From Streptomyces roseifaciens (GTDB lineage Bacteria; Actinomycetota; Actinomycetes; Streptomycetales; Streptomycetaceae): a stretch of 64,000 bases of DNA. Both the position numbers and the translations under genes were made by a program. The notes under the pieces were generated by a model, which was not told where the DNA came from, did not search any database, and worked only from the letters and a program-made list of their open reading frames with translations. Below are positions 55,113 to 62,437 of this stretch, piece after piece (position 1 is the stretch's first letter; each line of letters begins with the position of its first letter). The stretch is taken from NCBI RefSeq assembly GCF_001445655.1, contig NZ_LNBE01000003.1, positions 558,001-622,000 of the forward strand, written 5' to 3'.

Positions 55113-55200
55113 GTCCGGGTGGCGGAATGGCAGACGCGCTAGCTTGAGGTGCTAGTGCCCTTTATCGGGCGTGGGGGTTCAAGTCCCCCCTCGGACACCA
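55113..55200 (+). tRNA. tRNA-Leu (anticodon GAG)
   Basis: An 88-nt type II tRNA. The acceptor GTCCGGG pairs with CTCGGAC; the anticodon loop TTGAGGT is closed by CTAGC/GCTAG, giving anticodon GAG (Leu, CUC/CUU). The long variable arm is GTGCCCTTTATCGGGCGT, and the T arm is GGGGGTTCAAGTCCCCC. CCA is encoded (55198-55200). Its 3' end is the attachment site of the downstream island and is regenerated intact. Confidence 0.97.
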
Positions 55201-55241
55201 GCAGGAACCCCAGTTGATCTGGGGTTTTTCTGTTTCTCCGG
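55177..55241. repeat. attL: tRNA 3' end plus terminator
   Basis: This 65-bp segment (25 bp of tRNA T-arm/acceptor through the terminator) is repeated in direct orientation at 62373-62437 with only three mismatches; the first 25 bp (55177-55201) are identical. Such a repeat at a tRNA 3' end is the hallmark of tyrosine-integrase-mediated insertion. Confidence 0.9.
55206..55229 (+). terminator. Intrinsic terminator of tRNA-Leu
   Basis: AACCCCAG-TTGAT-CTGGGGTT followed by a T-run is a classical rho-independent terminator 5 bp after the tRNA. The same hairpin occurs at 62402-62422 beyond the island, so it was part of the duplicated attachment region or carried by the element. Confidence 0.9.
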
Positions 55242-55248
55242 CTGTGGC

Positions 55249-55269
55249 GTGACCAACCACGTGACCAAC
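55249..55269. promoter_or_regulatory. Left arm-type repeats GTGACCAAC (x2)
   Basis: GTGACCAAC occurs at 55249-55257 and 55261-55269 as direct repeats 12 bp apart, just inside attL. The same 9-mer recurs just inside attR. This placement is typical of arm-binding sites of a tyrosine integrase or its excisionase. Confidence 0.6.
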
Positions 55270-55288
55270 AGCCGAGCGAATCTCCTGG

Positions 55289-55496
55289 TCAGACCAGGGA
55301 TGACAGGCCGAGACGGCTGGCACTGGAAGCGGCCAGCTTCTTCGCTCCCTCAGCGCGACGCCTGCCGTACCGCGCCATGGTGTAGCCCGGCGAGTGGTGC
55401 CGGGCGTTGGCCGAGACCTCTACCGGGTTCTCGTGGTTGTCGAGATCGTTCGTGATCTTCGACGCCCGCCAGTCGTGCAGCCGGACAACGGCGAAG
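55289..55496 (-). pseudogene. C-terminal remnant of tyrosine integrase
   Basis: On the minus strand about 65 codons ending at TGA 55289-55291 read as the C-terminus of a phage-type integrase: RLHDWRASKITNDL (the H-x-x-R box), VEVSANARHHSP (second conserved histidine) and GYTMARYGRRRAEGAKKLA (catalytic Tyr of the family). Upstream of about 55496 the homology stops abruptly at the hairpin array, so at least 250-300 N-terminal residues are missing. Its place next to attL is where the integrase gene of such elements sits. It cannot be functional. Confidence 0.75.
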
Positions 55497-56061
55497 AGGA
55501 CCAGGGGCGCGGCAGCGCCCCACCTGGCGAAGAGGCAGCGGCGAAGAGGTGAGCAGCAAGGGGCGGCCGTCTGGCCGCACAGCCCGAAGCCACTTCGACA
55601 GAGCGGCCCCGCCAGGGGCCGACATCACCAAGCCCAAGAAGCTAGCCAGGTGGGGCGCTGCCGCGCCCCCACAGCGCGAAGCCGCAAGAGCAAGGCGTAA
55701 GGGTAAGGGGCCGCTTACGCGGCCACAGAGTCAAGCCAGTTACAGCAAGCCTCAGAAGGCTTCACTCCTGTGCAGCCTCCGACTGCCGGCCAGATCAGGA
55801 GCAGCGCTTTGACCTGCGCTTTCTTTGCCGCTGTCTCGCTTCGCCGTTGCCCTGACGAGGTCTGGAACCGTGGCAGGATCTGAGCTGCTAAGACATGGCG
55901 GTCGGCGCTTTCGCCTTCAGGGGGTCATACCCCCACCCCTTCGCCGTTGCCTTCACCTCGGGCAAAGCCAAGTCCTTACCCTTCCCTCCGCCGTCGCAGG
56001 CTCCGCCTTGCCATGTGGCAGGCGAACGACCGTACGGCTCTATGCGCGGCCGACAGGCCGC
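55486..56061. ncRNA. Hairpin array with conserved linkers; candidate structured RNA or DNA element
   Basis: At least eight short hairpins occur in about 575 bp: 55504-55521 (GGGGCGC-GGCA-GCGCCCC), 55563-55578, 55604-55621 (CGGCCCC-GCCA-GGGGCCG), 55652-55669, 55709-55724, 55747-55762, 55920-55934 and 56046-56061 (GCGGCC-GACA-GGCCGC). Hairpins 2 to 5 are each followed, at the same distance, by ACA-N5-AAGCC. Linkers are rich in AAG, and CTTCGCCGTTG at 55839 and 55939 is complementary to CAACGGCGAAG at 55486. A perfect 25-bp inverted repeat joins 55504-55528 and 55645-55669. The strand of any transcript is unknown. The right part overlaps the doubtful N-terminal extension of the recombinase gene. 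Confidence 0.5.
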
Positions 56062-56895
56062 ACGCCTCACGAGGCGACGAGACCAGCACGACAGGCCGTC
56101 AGGCACCCGAAGTGCGAAGCCCCCGCAGGTAGCTCCTGCCGGACGACCACGGGCAAGGTCGCAGCGAACTACCACACGGGCCGCTTCGCCCTCGTGCCTG
56201 CACTCAAAGCGGAACTCGCGGTGAAGACTCCGGCTGACCGCAACCCCGGTAAGCCGTGGGTTGCTGGCGAGGTAGTCCCCGTGGTGTCCGAAGCGATACC
56301 GGGCGCAGCGATCCGACTTGGCTATGCCAGGTGCAGCACGGTCGGGCAGGAACTCCAGAGCCAGTTGGACATGCTTGCCCGTGCCGACTGCACGCGGGTC
56401 TTCTCCGAGAAGATCAGCACCCGTGTGAAGGAGCGGCCGGAACTGGAGAAGGCGTTGGCTCTGGCGCGGGAGATCAAGACAGCCGCTCCGAACCAGCCCG
56501 TCATCCTGACCGTGGTCGAGATGAAGCGTCTCGCCCGCAACGCGGCAGAGCTCATGACGCTGTCCTCCACCCTGCAAGCGGACGGCATCCAACTCGAACT
56601 CCTCTCCGGCCCCTTGCAGGGTGTGTACGACCCGAACGGGGCGGGTGCCATCGTGTTCGCCGTCCTGGCCGTGGCCGCAGAGGTGGAGCGGGAAGGCATC
56701 CGGGAGAAGACGTTGGAGGGGCTGGACACTGCGGCACGCAAGGGCAACCACGGTGGGCGCCCCTCCGTAGTCGACGACGACAAGCTAGCCGTAGCCCGTG
56801 CCCGACACGCCAAGGGGGAGAGCGTCACAGCCATCGCTAAGGCCCTGGGGATCGGTCGTGCCACTTTGTACCGGCACATCGGAGAGGGCGCCTGA
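55870..56895 (+). CDS. Serine recombinase (resolvase/invertase family), start uncertain
   Basis: The catalytic domain is unmistakable: RLGYARCSTVGQELQSQLDML with the nucleophilic Ser, ending in a Hin-like helix-turn-helix (GGRPSVVDDDKLAVARARHAKGESVTAIAKALGIGRATLYRHI). Before it lies a cysteine-containing segment, HPKCEAPAGSSCRTTTGKVAANYHTGRF, typical of a Zn-finger module in Streptomyces recombinases. The frame is open upstream but there is no ATG or GTG at the expected point (near 56077). The GTG at 55870 (ACGAGG upstream) is used here, although codons 55870-56076 look non-coding. GTG 56221 is the alternative if only the catalytic part is made. Confidence 0.75.
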   Translation: MAGSELLRHGGRRFRLQGVIPPPLRRCLHLGQSQVLTLPSAVAGSALPCGRRTTVRLYARPTGRTPHEATRPARQAVRHPKCEAPAGSSCRTTTGKVAANYHTGRFALVPALKAELAVKTPADRNPGKPWVAGEVVPVVSEAIPGAAIRLGYARCSTVGQELQSQLDMLARADCTRVFSEKISTRVKERPELEKALALAREIKTAAPNQPVILTVVEMKRLARNAAELMTLSSTLQADGIQLELLSGPLQGVYDPNGAGAIVFAVLAVAAEVEREGIREKTLEGLDTAARKGNHGGRPSVVDDDKLAVARARHAKGESVTAIAKALGIGRATLYRHIGEGA

Positions 56896-56970: not shown

Positions 56971-57825
56971 TCATGCACTTACTTCGGAGTGTATGGGGAC
57001 CGGTGGCCGAACGCCGGTGAGTGACTCCGCACGAGTGAGCAGGCGTGGCGCAAGGTCCGGATACCAGCCACGTGCCACGGCTTGCAGCATCTCCGCCAGG
57101 GCCGCGAGTTCTCCGATTCGGCCAGCGGGGGTGTCCAGGACCGCAGCGAACTCCTGCCGGATACGGTCGGCCACGTCAGGGACAAGCAAGCTGTTGACGT
57201 GGAGGAGGCCCGCGTCGTAGCCAAGGGGCACCAGCCCCCACCGCTCCCAGTCCAACAGGCACAGGGGTGCGCCGGTGAGGTTGCCCCAGTGCAGATCACC
57301 ATGACCGGTCACCCGCTCCACCTTGGCGGGGGCCGGAATGCCGAGGAACCGAGGGAAGGCTCGTTCGATCCACCCGTCCCGAACGGTCGTCTTCACACCC
57401 TCCGCCTCAGCGAGCAGGGCAAGGGCTTGGCGAAGGTCCGTCCACCACTCATCCGGCAACCCCGGGTCGTGGTCGATGTCGGCTCGGTCCGGGGACACCA
57501 CGGCTTGTGTGAGGTAGTCGAGGACTTCGGCCTGGAAGGCCCACTCCCCGTCAGTCCAGTCATGCACTGCGTAGAGGTGAGGGCGAGGGACGCCGTCAGG
57601 CACCAGCTCAGAGGCTCCGACGATGCCCTCCCCCTGTTTCCTGCCCGCGTTCCTCTTTGCCGTCCGGCTCACCCGTAGCCACCGGTCTCCCGCTCGGCGT
57701 CCGAGGGTGACGCCAAGGAAGCCCCATGCCAGCGGCCCCGTGCATGTGAGGCCCAGAGCCTTGGCCGCCCGGTCGTGGGCGACCTCCATTAGGGCCTGTA
57801 CCTCCTCATTCAGAGGCGAGTTCAT
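56971..57825 (-). CDS. APH-fold phosphotransferase
   Basis: A 284-aa kinase-like protein with the phosphotransferase Brenner motif TGHGDLHWGN (catalytic Asp), the metal-binding LLDWERWGLVPLGYD and an N-terminal lobe whose lysine motif is not obvious. Aminoglycoside-phosphotransferase-fold enzymes phosphorylate small hydroxylated molecules or, in some RiPP pathways, peptides. It is last in the minus-strand island operon and overlaps the AKR gene by 20 bp, so it is tightly coupled. An antibiotic-resistance role is possible but the operon context suggests a biosynthetic or modifying one. Confidence 0.82.
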   Translation of the reverse strand: MNSPLNEEVQALMEVAHDRAAKALGLTCTGPLAWGFLGVTLGRRAGDRWLRVSRTAKRNAGRKQGEGIVGASELVPDGVPRPHLYAVHDWTDGEWAFQAEVLDYLTQAVVSPDRADIDHDPGLPDEWWTDLRQALALLAEAEGVKTTVRDGWIERAFPRFLGIPAPAKVERVTGHGDLHWGNLTGAPLCLLDWERWGLVPLGYDAGLLHVNSLLVPDVADRIRQEFAAVLDTPAGRIGELAALAEMLQAVARGWYPDLAPRLLTRAESLTGVRPPVPIHSEVSA

Positions 57826-58711
57826 CCGTTACCTTCCTGAGTTCCTGGTCCGTCAGCGGCGCAGCCAGAGCCTTGGCCACATCGTCCCAGTGCTCGCGAG
57901 TGCTCGCGGAAGTCAGGACGATATCGAGGCCGGGGCACGAGCCAGCGGCCAGCAGGGCAGCGGCTGCGGCTGACAGGCCAGGGCGGATGAGCTTGACCAG
58001 TTCGGGTGTCATGGCATCAAGGAGTTCGCCCCCGTGCAGGGGGGCGGAGCCGAACGTGATCACCCCCGCTTCCTTCGCCTGCACCAGCGGTCCGCCGCCG
58101 TCGAGTGCCTGCCTGATCAGGTCATCCATGACCAGGCTGACAGGCACCTGCAAGCCCGTGAAGTGATGTTTGGCGGAGCCTGCCGCTTGCCGGGCGAGCG
58201 CGAGCAACTCGGGAACGCTGAAGGCTCCGGAGCGCAGACCCGACCATGTGGCGACGCCGTACCCGGCGATCCTGCCCGCGTGGGCGAACTCCTCCAGCGC
58301 CGTGAAGGCTTCCCGCACACGCCCGTGCAGAGCGGCACGGTCAAGGCCGTGCCCGTGGTGCTCGGGGTTGTGCACGAACACCAGGTCCACGCGGCCGAGC
58401 GCGGCCAACGAGCGCTCCGTCTGCCAGCGAACGAAGCCCCGTTCAAGGCTGTGCCTACCGGCCGTCTCTTCCCGGGTGAGCACGCCCTCAGTCATGGCGG
58501 TGCGGCCTTGCTCCTCCGTGAAGAACCCCGCCTTCGTAGCTACCCGCACGGTCGGGTACTCCCCGAGAACCGGCCGCAGCTCCTCATGCGCCCGGCCATG
58601 GGCGTAGTTCGGTGCCGTGTCTACCCATGGGCTACCCGCAGCCAGGGCGGTGCGTGCCGCCTGACCTACGGCACGCACGCGGTATGTCCCCAGGGAGAGT
58701 GCGGCGGTCAC
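57806..58711 (-). CDS. Aldo/keto reductase
   Basis: A 301-aa AKR-fold protein starting VTAALSLGTYRVRAVG, with the catalytic Asp and Tyr in SPWVDTAPNYAHGRAHEE, the Lys in RVATKAGFF, the His in LVFVHNPEHHG, and a C-terminal SASTREHWDDVAKA cofactor segment. It reduces carbonyl groups with NADPH. The GTG start at 58711 overlaps the JmjC stop (GTGA). Its association with an oxygenase and a kinase-fold enzyme suggests sequential modification of one substrate. Confidence 0.87.
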   Translation of the reverse strand: MTAALSLGTYRVRAVGQAARTALAAGSPWVDTAPNYAHGRAHEELRPVLGEYPTVRVATKAGFFTEEQGRTAMTEGVLTREETAGRHSLERGFVRWQTERSLAALGRVDLVFVHNPEHHGHGLDRAALHGRVREAFTALEEFAHAGRIAGYGVATWSGLRSGAFSVPELLALARQAAGSAKHHFTGLQVPVSLVMDDLIRQALDGGGPLVQAKEAGVITFGSAPLHGGELLDAMTPELVKLIRPGLSAAAAALLAAGSCPGLDIVLTSASTREHWDDVAKALAAPLTDQELRKVTDELASE

Positions 58712-59895
58712 AGTGCCGTCCCCACGACTGCGACGGTGTGCCCGTCGATGAGGACGGAGACTAGTTCGGCCACCTCCTTGACCTCCAGCCCGGCCGAGTC
58801 GGCCATCTCGCCGAGAGTGGTCGGCTGATTAGTCAACAGCGAGCCCAGCGCGGGCGCTGCGGACTCGGCGAAGTCCCACGCGGTACCGGCCGCCGAGAAG
58901 GTGACCGTGCCCTCTGTGCGGTTCGGCGTCAGGCGGCCCCTCGGTGCGGTGAGCTTCACCGCGATCTCCCTCCGTGCGGGGAGTCCGTCCACGTACGGCA
59001 GTGACGGAATCGCGTGGCCCAGGTCGGTCGTGTCGATCGACTCCGCCCACCGCTCCACGAGGCGCGGGTCCGCCATCATGTCGGCCACCTCACGGCGCAC
59101 AGCGTCGATGAAGTCCGACTGTTCCACCAGCGAACCGAAGCGCGGCATGTCCCTGCGGAGCGCGAGGGACGCCCGAAGCTGATCGACGACCCAGAGCATC
59201 AGGTCAGCACCCGTGTGCGGCACCATGCCGAACGTCAGGTGCAGGGATTCCGTCCCCTGGTCAGCGGTGACCGAGTGCCACCAGCCGCGCGGCAGGTAGA
59301 GCACGTCACCCGGGGACAGAACGAGGTCCGCCACCGGGTCGTGGTCCGGCTCCTCCGGCGACTCCACGTCCCGGAAGGTGGGCGCCTCACGGGTCATCCC
59401 CCACAGGCGCCACCGCTTCGAGCCGTGCAGTTGGACCACGACGACACCATGGTCGTCCCAGTGCCGGCCGAAGCCCTCCCGCTCGGTCCACGAGGCGTAC
59501 ACGTTGGCCTGCACGGAAGTCCCGAGGAAGCGTTCCAGCCCTTCGGCAGCCGCTCCCACGGCGGGGTGGATCTTCTCCACCGCATCGAGGACCAGCGACG
59601 CCCCATCTCGGAGCTGGGCGTGGAAGTCGGACGGCTGGATGCGGGACCAGGTAACCGCGCGGCGGTTCGTGGTCGGGATCGCGTAGCGGTGCAGCGGGAC
59701 CATCTCGCCGTCGACCGACAGGCGCAGCCGGGGCGGCTCCAGCCGCTGCGTGGCGATGATCCGGTTCAGGTCGTCCCAGGAGAACAGGCCCGCCGTGTCG
59801 GCGGCCCCGGGAAGGTGCGCGTAGGAGCGGTGGTACGTCTGGGCGAGGAACGTGTCCCCGCCCAGACGCCCCGCCCACGAGGCTGCATCAAGCAC
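58708..59895 (-). CDS. JmjC/cupin-fold 2-oxoglutarate oxygenase (ribosomal-oxygenase-like)
   Basis: A 395-aa Fe(II)/2OG oxygenase. The metal triad is H145-x-D147 in EGFGRHWDDHG and H207 in LPRGWWHSVT; ANVYASWTERE and QLHGSKRWRLW match the cupin_4/JmjC group that includes RoxA/YcfD, which hydroxylate arginine or histidine in ribosomal proteins. The C-terminal about 80 residues resemble the winged-helix domain of those enzymes (LTNQPTTLGEMADSAGLEVKEVAELVSVLIDG). GTG 59895 has GGGAGC about 8 bp upstream and lies 14 bp after the preceding stop. The substrate is probably a peptide or protein, possibly the small peptide encoded just upstream. Confidence 0.85.
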   Translation of the reverse strand: MLDAASWAGRLGGDTFLAQTYHRSYAHLPGAADTAGLFSWDDLNRIIATQRLEPPRLRLSVDGEMVPLHRYAIPTTNRRAVTWSRIQPSDFHAQLRDGASLVLDAVEKIHPAVGAAAEGLERFLGTSVQANVYASWTEREGFGRHWDDHGVVVVQLHGSKRWRLWGMTREAPTFRDVESPEEPDHDPVADLVLSPGDVLYLPRGWWHSVTADQGTESLHLTFGMVPHTGADLMLWVVDQLRASLALRRDMPRFGSLVEQSDFIDAVRREVADMMADPRLVERWAESIDTTDLGHAIPSLPYVDGLPARREIAVKLTAPRGRLTPNRTEGTVTFSAAGTAWDFAESAAPALGSLLTNQPTTLGEMADSAGLEVKEVAELVSVLIDGHTVAVVGTAL

Positions 59896-59909
59896 CGTGG
59901 GCGCTCCCG

Positions 59910-60047
59910 TCAGTCGTTGCCGTCGGAACGGCCACTGCTGACGTCCGACTCCTGCTCGGCGCGGGTGCGCGCGGCCACGATCTTCCGCTTCGCGACGAGC
60001 AGTCCACCCCCCTCGGGGGCGGCCGACGTGGTGTTCTGCTTCACCAT
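59910..60047 (-). CDS. Candidate 45-aa peptide, possible modification substrate
   Basis: From ATG 60047, with a good ribosome binding site (AGAGAGG, 9 bp before), a 45-residue frame runs to TGA 59910. It begins MVKQNTTSAAPEGGG, has a basic middle (KRKIVAARTRAE) and an acidic Ser/Gly/Asp-rich end (DVSSGRSDGND). It has no Cys and no His. It ends 14 bp before the JmjC gene, the place a precursor peptide usually occupies; arginines are plausible hydroxylation sites. It is in the same frame as a longer ORF starting at 60299, so it may be the C-terminus of that protein. Precursor status is inference. Confidence 0.5.
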   Translation of the reverse strand: MVKQNTTSAAPEGGGLLVAKRKIVAARTRAEQESDVSSGRSDGND

Positions 60048-60299
60048 CGGACTTACCTCTCTCTTCTCGGGGACTCCCACCGGGATTCCGGCAGGAAGCA
60101 AAGGGACAGCGACGAGCGCGGCGGACGCCGACCTCGGTGGCGACGGGCGCCCCGTGCACCGAGGGCACCCGCACGGCGGGTACTTGGTCGGCGAACCCAA
60201 GATCACCGCGTTGCGCGGGTTCACCTGCACCGTGCGCACCGGGCCGTACGTCCGGCCCCCGTCGTATGACACCCGGAGAGTCATGCGCCCGGTCGTCAT
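60048..60299 (-). other. In-frame upstream ORF with CxCPxC motif, reading into the 45-aa peptide
   Basis: ATG 60299 (coupled by ATGA to an upstream 33-aa ORF) opens a frame continuous with the 45-aa peptide, 129 residues in all. Its own 84 residues start MTTGRMTLRVSYDGGRTYGPV and contain YPPCGCPRCTGR, a small zinc-ribbon-like C-x-C-x2-C motif seen in short Streptomyces proteins. The piece after it (SASAALVAVPLLPAGIPVGV) is hydrophobic. Either one 129-aa protein is made or the internal start at 60047 yields a separate peptide. Confidence 0.45.
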
Positions 60300-60397
60300 G
60301 AGCGCACACCAGCGTCAGGACCGAACCTCCGCCGGTACCCCAGCCGCCACCCCACGCCGTAGCGGACCCACTTTTCGTTTCGCTCGGTCGCTGCCAT
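60296..60397 (-). CDS. Small 33-aa basic protein
   Basis: ATG 60397 to TGA 60296-60298 gives 33 residues, rich in Trp, Tyr, Gly and Arg (KWVRYGVGWRLGYRRRFG). Its stop overlaps the next start (ATGA), which argues for real translation although no Shine-Dalgarno sequence is visible before its ATG. It is the first gene of the modifying cassette after the XRE gene. Function unknown. Confidence 0.45.
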   Translation of the reverse strand: MAATERNEKWVRYGVGWRLGYRRRFGPDAGVRS

Positions 60398-60459: not shown

Positions 60460-61293
60460 TCATGAACGGCAGGCAGCAGACCACTCCGCCAGCAAGACTC
60501 GCGCTTCGCCCCCGAACAGCGCATAACCCTCCAGCGTGGAGAACAGTTCCAAATGCATTTCGATGTCGCGCGGATCTCTGAGGATCACGACACCGGTGGT
60601 GTTCTCCACAGTGGCCAGGGTGTTGTCGTAGACAGTGAAAGTGTCCATCGGAGCAATAGGCTTGTACCCTGCGATTGGGATGACGCCGAGCTTCACATTC
60701 GTCAGATGGGTCAGTGAAGCCAGCCGGTCAATCTGCATCGCCATCGCAGCCGGGGGCAGGAGTGGCCACCTCACAGCCTGCTCGGTAAGAATGAAGGTAA
60801 ACCGCTTCTTCGTGTCGTAAAGAACCTCCTGCCGCTCCAGCTTCCTTGCGATCGTCTTAGTGACATCGGCCGGAGAATGGGAAAGGCTGGCTCGGATGTA
60901 CTCAGGAGTGGACAGCAGTCCTGTAATCATCGAGAGCAGGAAGAAGCGGAACTCCGTGGACGAGGATTCAAGGGCAGCAAGTTCGGTCTGCTTCTTCTCC
61001 AGGCCCCTACGTCGCAGCGAGCGCAGGTCTTGCCATTCGGTGTTGGCCAGCCTCGCAAGGGCAATGACCTCCTCGATGACCTCGGGCGGAGCCGCGACGG
61101 CCCGGAGGATTCTTTCCAGGTCCAGCAGACTCGGTTGAGCTTTCCCATTCTCGATCCGGCTGATCTTCGATTGGGACATGTTGCAACGCCGAGCGAGCCG
61201 GTCCCCAGTGAGGCCGGCTCGCTTGCGTAGTTCTTTCAGCAGGGCGGCCAGTTCTTGCTTCGGCTGCCCCAACTGTTCAGGGTCGAACGTCAC
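60460..61293 (-). CDS. XRE family regulator with DUF5753 (Scr1-type)
   Basis: A 277-aa protein. The N-terminal Xre helix-turn-helix (LAALLKELRKRAGLTGDRLARRCNMSQSKISRIENGK, residues 12-48) is followed by the DUF5753 domain (LLSTPEYIRASLS ... TFTVYDNTLATVENTTGVVILRDPRDIEMHLELFSTL). Such Scr1-like proteins pair with small DUF397 or DUF6879-type partners in Streptomyces. The GTG 61293 overlaps the DUF6879 stop (GTGA). It probably regulates the island operon. Confidence 0.92.
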   Translation of the reverse strand: MTFDPEQLGQPKQELAALLKELRKRAGLTGDRLARRCNMSQSKISRIENGKAQPSLLDLERILRAVAAPPEVIEEVIALARLANTEWQDLRSLRRRGLEKKQTELAALESSSTEFRFFLLSMITGLLSTPEYIRASLSHSPADVTKTIARKLERQEVLYDTKKRFTFILTEQAVRWPLLPPAAMAMQIDRLASLTHLTNVKLGVIPIAGYKPIAPMDTFTVYDNTLATVENTTGVVILRDPRDIEMHLELFSTLEGYALFGGEARVLLAEWSAACRS

Positions 61294-61802
61294 CCGCTCA
61301 CGTACTCCAGGAATGGAACCGACTCGGCAACCGCAATCCGCTTCCACTGCCGGTACGGCTCGGGATCACCCTCGTACAGTTCCCGGTTTATCTGCGTCCC
61401 GTCCGCCCGGTAGTTCATCAGGACCACCTTGGACTCATCGAACATCCAGAAATCCTGGTCCGGGAGTCCCGGGTTCTCCCGGTCGGTGAGGTCGAGGATG
61501 CGGATATCCTCGCCCGCCTTCACGTGATGCCGGTAGTAATACTCGAACTCGAACCGAAGATAGTCCGAGAGCGGGCGGGTCACGACGTGCACCCTGCCAA
61601 CACTCTTTCCTTCCGAGGTCCATTGCCGAACCTCGTCCATCCAACCCGAGGTGTAATCGTCCGGCGACTTCTCCCCGGCGAGAAAGCGCTTCAGCTTCTC
61701 CGCTTCCTGGGGCATGGTGTAGACGGGCAGCGTTTCCAGCCGCCACGCCCCACGCTCCATGGAATCGAAGCAGTCATTCCACGCGTCACCATCCAAGAGC
61801 AC
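61290..61802 (-). CDS. DUF6879 family protein
   Basis: A 170-aa protein starting at GTG 61802 (MLLDGDAWNDCFDSMERGAWRLETL) with the family pattern VGRVHVVTRPLSDYLRFEFEYYYRHHVKAGEDIRILD and VVLMNYRADGTQINRELYEGD. DUF6879 proteins are common partners of Scr1-type XRE regulators; the biochemical role is unknown. It overlaps the upstream 70-aa gene by 17 bp and the XRE gene by 4 bp. Confidence 0.9.
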   Translation of the reverse strand: MLLDGDAWNDCFDSMERGAWRLETLPVYTMPQEAEKLKRFLAGEKSPDDYTSGWMDEVRQWTSEGKSVGRVHVVTRPLSDYLRFEFEYYYRHHVKAGEDIRILDLTDRENPGLPDQDFWMFDESKVVLMNYRADGTQINRELYEGDPEPYRQWKRIAVAESVPFLEYVSG

Positions 61803-62372: not shown

Positions 62373-62437
62373 GTTCAAGTCCCCCCTCGGACACCAGTAG
62401 AAACCCCAGTTGATCTGGGGTTTTTCTGTTTTTCCGG
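62373..62437. repeat. attR: duplicated tRNA-Leu 3' end plus terminator
   Basis: Direct repeat of 55177-55241 with mismatches only at three positions. It holds the T-arm/acceptor tail and CCA of tRNA-Leu followed by the terminator hairpin (62402-62422). There is no tRNA 5' half, so it is an attachment-site scar and not a functional tRNA. Confidence 0.9.

Follow-up and report, generated by a model that had tools for sequence, protein, structure and literature searches.

Towards its right-hand side, the window (i.e., the whole 64,000-nucleotide stretch of Streptomyces roseifaciens DNA that was analysed) holds an element of about 7.2 kb, measured from attL to attR. At its left boundary a tRNA-Leu gene (55113-55197, plus strand, identified with the Rfam tRNA model) contributes its 3' end to a 65-nt repeat (repeat part of attL, 55177-55241, plus strand), which is 95.4% identical to the 65-bp repeat of the tRNA-Leu 3' end at 62373-62437 (attR, plus strand). 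Next to attL the C-terminal end of a tyrosine integrase gene is found (55242-55485, minus strand), whose DNA is 94.5% identical to that of a related locus, L037, where the same integrase is encoded by a whole gene of 425 amino acids with a Pfam Phage_integrase match below cut-off (16.9 versus 27.1 bits). The match to L037 stops at 55485, where an array of hairpins begins, and a small serine recombinase gene of the resolvase type follows (56106-56895, plus strand; Pfam Resolvase 5.1e-26, HTH_7), with the block of homology starting at 56106 and, as judged by eye from the comparison with L037, an N-terminus that differs from that of its relatives. This setting between a broken integrase and a serine recombinase in a mobile island had been described in an earlier sequence-only reading and was borne out. 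The right part of the element carries, all on the minus strand, three cargo genes for an APH-like kinase-fold protein (56971-57825; Pfam APH 3.2e-4, below cut-off), an aldo/keto reductase (57806-58711; Pfam) and a JmjC_2/cupin protein (58708-60309; Pfam JmjC_2 4.4e-30), the last being a JmjC_2/cupin gene carried by a small mobile element alongside kinase-like and reductase genes. These are followed by genes for an XRE-type regulator with DUF5753 (60460-61347; Pfam) and for a DUF6879 protein (61290-61802; Pfam 6.2e-53), a pair (60460-61802) which recurs to the right of the core described below in numerous loci of different types, whether or not they have the recombinase. The Pfam scans of seven window ORFs revealed neither a primase nor any of the replication or FtsK-like transfer families of actinomycete integrative conjugative elements, and the phage-protein queries detected no packaging, head, tail or lysis genes of the R4 type in the element near the core. 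As compared to L037, the window element is without most of the integrase, an excisionase-like gene, a small ORF and the array's outer flank, losses which are all explained by one deletion between 55485 and 55486.

The array (55486-55762, plus strand) starts exactly at this deletion junction, as the sequence comparison with L037 revealed, and comprises six hairpins, the first of which (55504-55521) is followed by ACCTGGCGAAGAG, whereas four (55563-55578, 55604-55621, 55652-55669 and 55709-55724) are followed by a linker of the form ACA-N5-AAGCC; the sixth (55747-55762) is additional to the five noted earlier. Those five were all recovered with loops of 4 nt, and the start-to-start distances among the six are 59, 41, 48, 57 and 38. 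The linker had been described as following four of the hairpins, which holds, except that at 55652-55669 the ACA comes after an additional C. The span of 55486-56061 once given for the array also takes in the core and a poorly conserved stretch. Within the array, 55504-55528 and 55645-55669 form a perfect inverted repeat of 25 nt, the arms of which are 116 nt apart and contain two of the hairpins. With a stem of at least 6 and a loop of 3-6 as the counting criterion, 55486-55862 holds six hairpins, whereas 1000 dinucleotide shuffles gave 0.63 on average and never more than 5; of 169 window tiles of the same size, 2 also reach six. Across 24 related loci, 50 of 80 linker matches (at most one mismatch, within the 800 nt that lead up to the core) immediately follow a hairpin, versus 0-6 of 79-80 at nine shifted positions, whereby the array units of these loci are not independent because the loci share descent. 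By the shuffle counts and this association of hairpin and linker across related loci, a chance array was ruled out. Among homologous units the stems vary yet remain paired and the linker is one-sided, as is illustrated by a compilation of stem pairs, which is not a covariation test as units were chosen for pairing and units of one array were mixed. The earlier proposal that structure and motif are kept together agrees with this, and homologous arrays, whose absence had been named first among the findings that would refute it, were found both in R4-like phages and elsewhere in the genus, with stems that differ but pair.

When 55440-56120 was used for a search of 295 genomes of the genus, matches were obtained in 42, and the most widely shared part proved to be 55862-55940 (plus strand), a core located 100-140 bp downstream of the hairpin array. 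The core is closed by a terminal hairpin (GGGGG-TCATA-CCCCC, 55920-55934) and scores 84.6 bits with a sequence-only model (R1, see below). A composite core query matched 37 phage records at E<=10, namely 34 of Streptomyces phages, two of Bacillus phages and one of a Gordonia phage, the Bacillus and Gordonia matches being taken as chance. The ends of phage records are, by deposit custom, the physical ends of the genome, and in 27 of the 34 Streptomyces-phage records the core match lies within 30 nt of the record end. Sixteen records (13 phages, three of which were deposited twice) break exactly between query positions 27 and 28, corresponding to a cut point between window positions 55889 and 55890; query position 28 is the last base in 12 of these records and position 27 the first base in 4. 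Internal core matches were found in seven records (Sentinel, Salutena and Sitrop with two records each, and Verabelle). As many individual phage matches have weak E-values (up to 8), the weight of this evidence comes from the agreement of the record-end positions. Comparison of the ends of five phages revealed that the TrvxScott end fits the window core on both sides of the break, while those of R4, phiHau3 and Amela fit to the left of it and carry bases right of the cut which differ from the window; in phiScoe1, a circular record, the break is shifted by three bases. The accessible text of the Sentinel paper is silent on genome ends. Judged by these alignments, 55862-55940 is very probably the cos region of R4-like (Arquatrovirinae) Streptomyces phages, which had been overlooked in the earlier reading of the layout together with the related hairpins near cos in phages. 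A search of the host's own genome with model R1 returned this one strong core and no second strong one, hence there is no resident helper with the same cos.

The left ends of R4, TrvxScott and Sentinel hold hairpins with related linkers near cos (in R4 and Sentinel the linker is ACAGAGCAGAGCC), and an 18-nt hairpin (GGGGCGCTGCCGCGCCCC) is identical in the window, R4 and TrvxScott; phiHau3 possesses hairpins with weaker linkers and Amela two weak hairpins. Comparison of 14 element arrays with 8 phage or prophage regions yielded 64 matches at E<=1e-3, while 20 sets of simply base-shuffled sequences gave 0-1 each. Many of these matches are the hairpins themselves, and the longest among 40 of the 64 are those of L042 with R4 (62 nt, 79%) and of L040 with R4 (94 nt, 70%). 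The R4-like phages share with the window element a core that breaks at the same point and, in R4, TrvxScott and Sentinel, hairpins with a likeness to the element array, which in these phages sit between cos and an HNH gene. They differ from it in that the queries of the element gave no HNH, TerS, TerL or structural gene, and in that by eye an ORF was identified between array and cos in R4 and TrvxScott, whereas none was seen in the window.

To describe how the core is distributed, model R1 was built from 22 rows, 21 taken from sampled genomes and one from Sentinel, so that its own rows match by construction. Under stricter filters it found 55 sites, which belong to 47 of the 392 genomes searched in the genus; in a sample of the order it matched 18 of 197 genomes, 17 of them from the same genus and one a weak match outside (E 2.4e-5). 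The loci were read in 57 pieces, mostly of 19 kb, of which 54 hold the 55 genus sites and three come from the order sample. A piece was labelled a prophage when it matched six or more phage queries, which gave R4-type prophages in 13 of the 57 pieces (10 among the 54 genus pieces); L093, L150 and L157 have one or two phage-query matches each. A small serine recombinase without any phage-query match characterizes 24 of the 57 loci: 19 phage-protein queries representing 16 gene kinds gave no match at E<=1e-4 in these pieces (mostly 9 kb to either side), structural genes too diverged from R4 being expected to escape such queries. An integrase gene lies left of cos in 21 of the 24, and 17 of them encode relatives of a small ORF that is placed in L037 between integrase and array (L037:8225-8611, plus strand). 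Att repeats were found in 10 of 11 recombinase-type loci examined, 6.0-10.4 kb apart, L052 being the one in which no such repeat was found. In L037 and L143, which carry the same integrase whole, they are 10.4 and 10.3 kb apart, and in L036, where the piece read contains no tRNA gene, repeats of 22-24 nt are 6.9 kb apart. A second site is used by six elements, each with a large serine integrase identified by eye, which measure 6.0 (L046), 6.9 (L048), 7.0 (L047), 7.1 (L042), 8.3 (L086) and 10.0 kb (L147). In L049, L054, L055, L090 and L149 an HsdM-like gene of type I restriction-modification, recognized by eye, adjoins the core, and some of these HsdM-type loci have a ychF-like gene nearby; L100 has an HsdM-like gene next to cos as well, but with 24% identity. 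Such loci possibly represent restriction-modification as cargo, or a cos left behind. Apart from them the remaining loci are mixed or bare, and two loci (L088 in genome G080, and G523:C82) each have two cos-like sites about 350 nt apart, the second being weaker. None of 19 IMG/VR stretches with the core pattern holds the satellite integrases, the small ORF or the recombinase, with one weak Xis-like match in L062. The array-core stretch matches none of 72,556 plasmid records, and a plasmid origin was ruled out; a wider query matches 128 plasmid records, the best 20 of them over the recombinase gene.

As regards the function of the array, its being the terminase-recognition part of cos, as cosB is in phage lambda, was considered, whereby each ACA-N5-AAGCC unit would be a putative small-terminase site of the same satellite-like element. 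Most of the 24 loci with the recombinase retain the array along with cos, both occur at the left ends of R4-like phages, and in eight loci (the window, L036, L038, L039, L041, L143, L144 and L147) the unit nearest cos is 132-134 nt from the core. However, mapping of unit positions by a loose criterion of two linker mismatches, which also gives scattered single matches, revealed that this distance is not fixed. In L043 and L091 the units lie 0.1-0.3 kb from the small ORF with cos 0.9-1.6 kb away, and 11 of the 13 prophage pieces have a unit no more than about 150 nt away from the start of the HNH gene, with cos at a distance of up to 3.8 kb; the exceptions are L095 and L146. Moreover, the array is on the opposite strand in L050, L094 and L099, and the five HsdM-type cos loci are without a linker-bearing unit to the left of cos. 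As the array moves independently of cos, a cosB-like function was demoted from first choice, and the reading as a whole is considered rather unlikely; taken within the satellite reading alone, a terminase site is second choice at about one quarter. From these positions the array appears to go with a neighbouring gene and not with cos, with L098 being an exception to its location by the small ORF.

In L094 and L099 the neighbouring gene, located 0.06-0.76 kb left of the core, is an O-like ORF on the minus strand (a family of 205 amino acids) whose coding sequence contains hairpins; the linker, or a close variant of it, accompanies two of these hairpins in L099 and one in L094. The N-terminus of the family matches HTH_36 and O-like replication proteins. 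In L050 the O-like ORF stops early, so that one unit straddles its end and one follows, and two shorter O-like relatives (P0204 and P0205) are without the stretch that holds the hairpins. The small ORF has 54 relatives, the named ones being all from Streptomyces; it has no match in the phage collection and none in Pfam or PHROG beyond one of E 0.1, its predicted fold is poor (pLDDT 42), and no significant similarity to the O-like protein was found (hhalign probability 1.1). In 12 of 15 element loci, the window excluded, the most AT-rich 20-mer within the 1.2 kb left of cos is found outside the array at a distance of at most 120 nt, and this AT-rich box at the outer array edge aligns across loci, L036, L043 and L045 being exceptions; its AT fraction of 0.60-0.75 is not rare, as 15 of 52 window tiles reach 0.60. 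Iteron origins have repeats beside or inside an initiator gene and an AT-rich flank, and here the repeats lie inside the O-like ORF in L094 and L099 and beside the small ORF, at most a candidate initiator, in most other loci. As repeats by or in an initiator-like gene together with an AT-rich flank resemble iteron origins, a replication origin is the first choice for the array, with a probability of about one half within the satellite reading. The origin of phage lambda lies within its O gene, likewise as the repeats in L094 and L099 lie within an HTH_36/O-like ORF, whereas the repeats described here are hairpins with a one-sided linker and the array of most loci is preceded by a small ORF of another kind. 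A replication site and a multi-site protein-binding element, both named among the early options, are among the candidate roles.

As an alternative for the element as a whole, the window cos was considered to be the leftover of an R4-like prophage with the rest lost, which would go along with the damage seen. By comparison with L037 the window copy is a decayed one, with a truncated integrase, an array that is missing its outer AT-rich flank, and a retained cos, and the same core is present in R4-type prophages at 13 of the 57 loci. Against this, the same layout recurs with several integrases, a small ORF unmatched in phages and the recombinase, between att repeats, which independent decay would not yield, rendering this explanation improbable. 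That the array is a structured RNA acting, e.g., in packaging or regulation is very improbable: the differing but paired stems and the one-sided linker would agree with it, but for the large structured non-coding RNA suggested earlier no Rfam 15 family comes near threshold at the locus (all hits there are sub-threshold and the tRNA is the sole gathering-score match in the window), units inside coding sequence fit a DNA element better, and four mismatched pairs in 50 units, none of them G-T, are too few to decide.

With att repeats and integrase, no structural genes found, and a packaging signal shared with R4-like phages, the element has the traits of a satellite as far as sequence goes. It is probably phage-satellite-like, borrowing the cos of an R4-like phage, and we favour, with somewhat more reserve, the more specific reading of array and cos as a cis-acting cassette in a 7.2-kb integrative element which resembles a satellite of R4-like (Arquatrovirinae) phages. 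That both act in cis is argued by the elements keeping both. The suggested mechanism assumes that the element excises and would replicate from the array as an iteron-type origin, using a small element-encoded protein, phage proteins or both. Subsequently, phage terminase would cut the replicated element at cos and fill particles with it, and in the recipient the small recombinase may resolve multimers of the element. An argument from size multiples, according to which element sizes times a whole number give about 50 kb, was dropped: several sizes fit, but by a rough reckoning about half of random sizes would.

Among known satellites, the PICMI satellites of Vibrio phages, which carry int, alpA and a primase and reside next to fis, are likewise of about 6 kb with few genes, an integrase and no capsid-remodelling genes, and are packaged as concatemers; in the accessible text their authors report to have found no cos or pac (PMC10803314). 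The element described here differs from them by its recognisable cos, its tRNA-Leu site, its other host genus and a primase not being seen, and its packaging is putative. P4 and the cos-type PICIs, as described in the accessible part of the source, borrow the helper terminase via a cos site, as is proposed for the element, but encode proteins that change capsid size or redirect terminase, none of which was recognised in the element, where several genes are of unassigned function (PMC10690885). Satellites of Streptomyces have been described as well, namely Mulch and Flayer, which according to the same text encode a terminase, a portal and a capsid of their own and have BE-cluster phages with long terminal repeats as helpers (PMC10690885). 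A literature search largely confined to openly accessible papers returned no published description of cos-carrying R4-type satellites in Streptomyces. At a little less than an even chance, the elements may constitute a new family of minimal actinobacterial satellites, widespread in Streptomyces and riding R4-like phages, that combine the helper's cos, a hairpin-iteron origin and a multimer-breaking resolvase, the hairpin-linker unit being in that case a new structure-selected origin repeat common to helper and satellite.

Satellites that borrow cos are already known, and the Streptomyces satellites found in print, as far as the accessible texts describe them, bring their own capsid genes. A class with few genes would, if true, account for a possible transfer of small islands with varied cargo among Streptomyces, and among the 54 genus pieces read the recombinase-type loci (24) outnumber the R4-type prophages (10). 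R4-like phages would thereby become testable helpers and the cos core a simple marker for such elements. To our knowledge, the start of replication in R4-like phages has so far not been located, and if the array is an origin, it would provide a candidate for this site.
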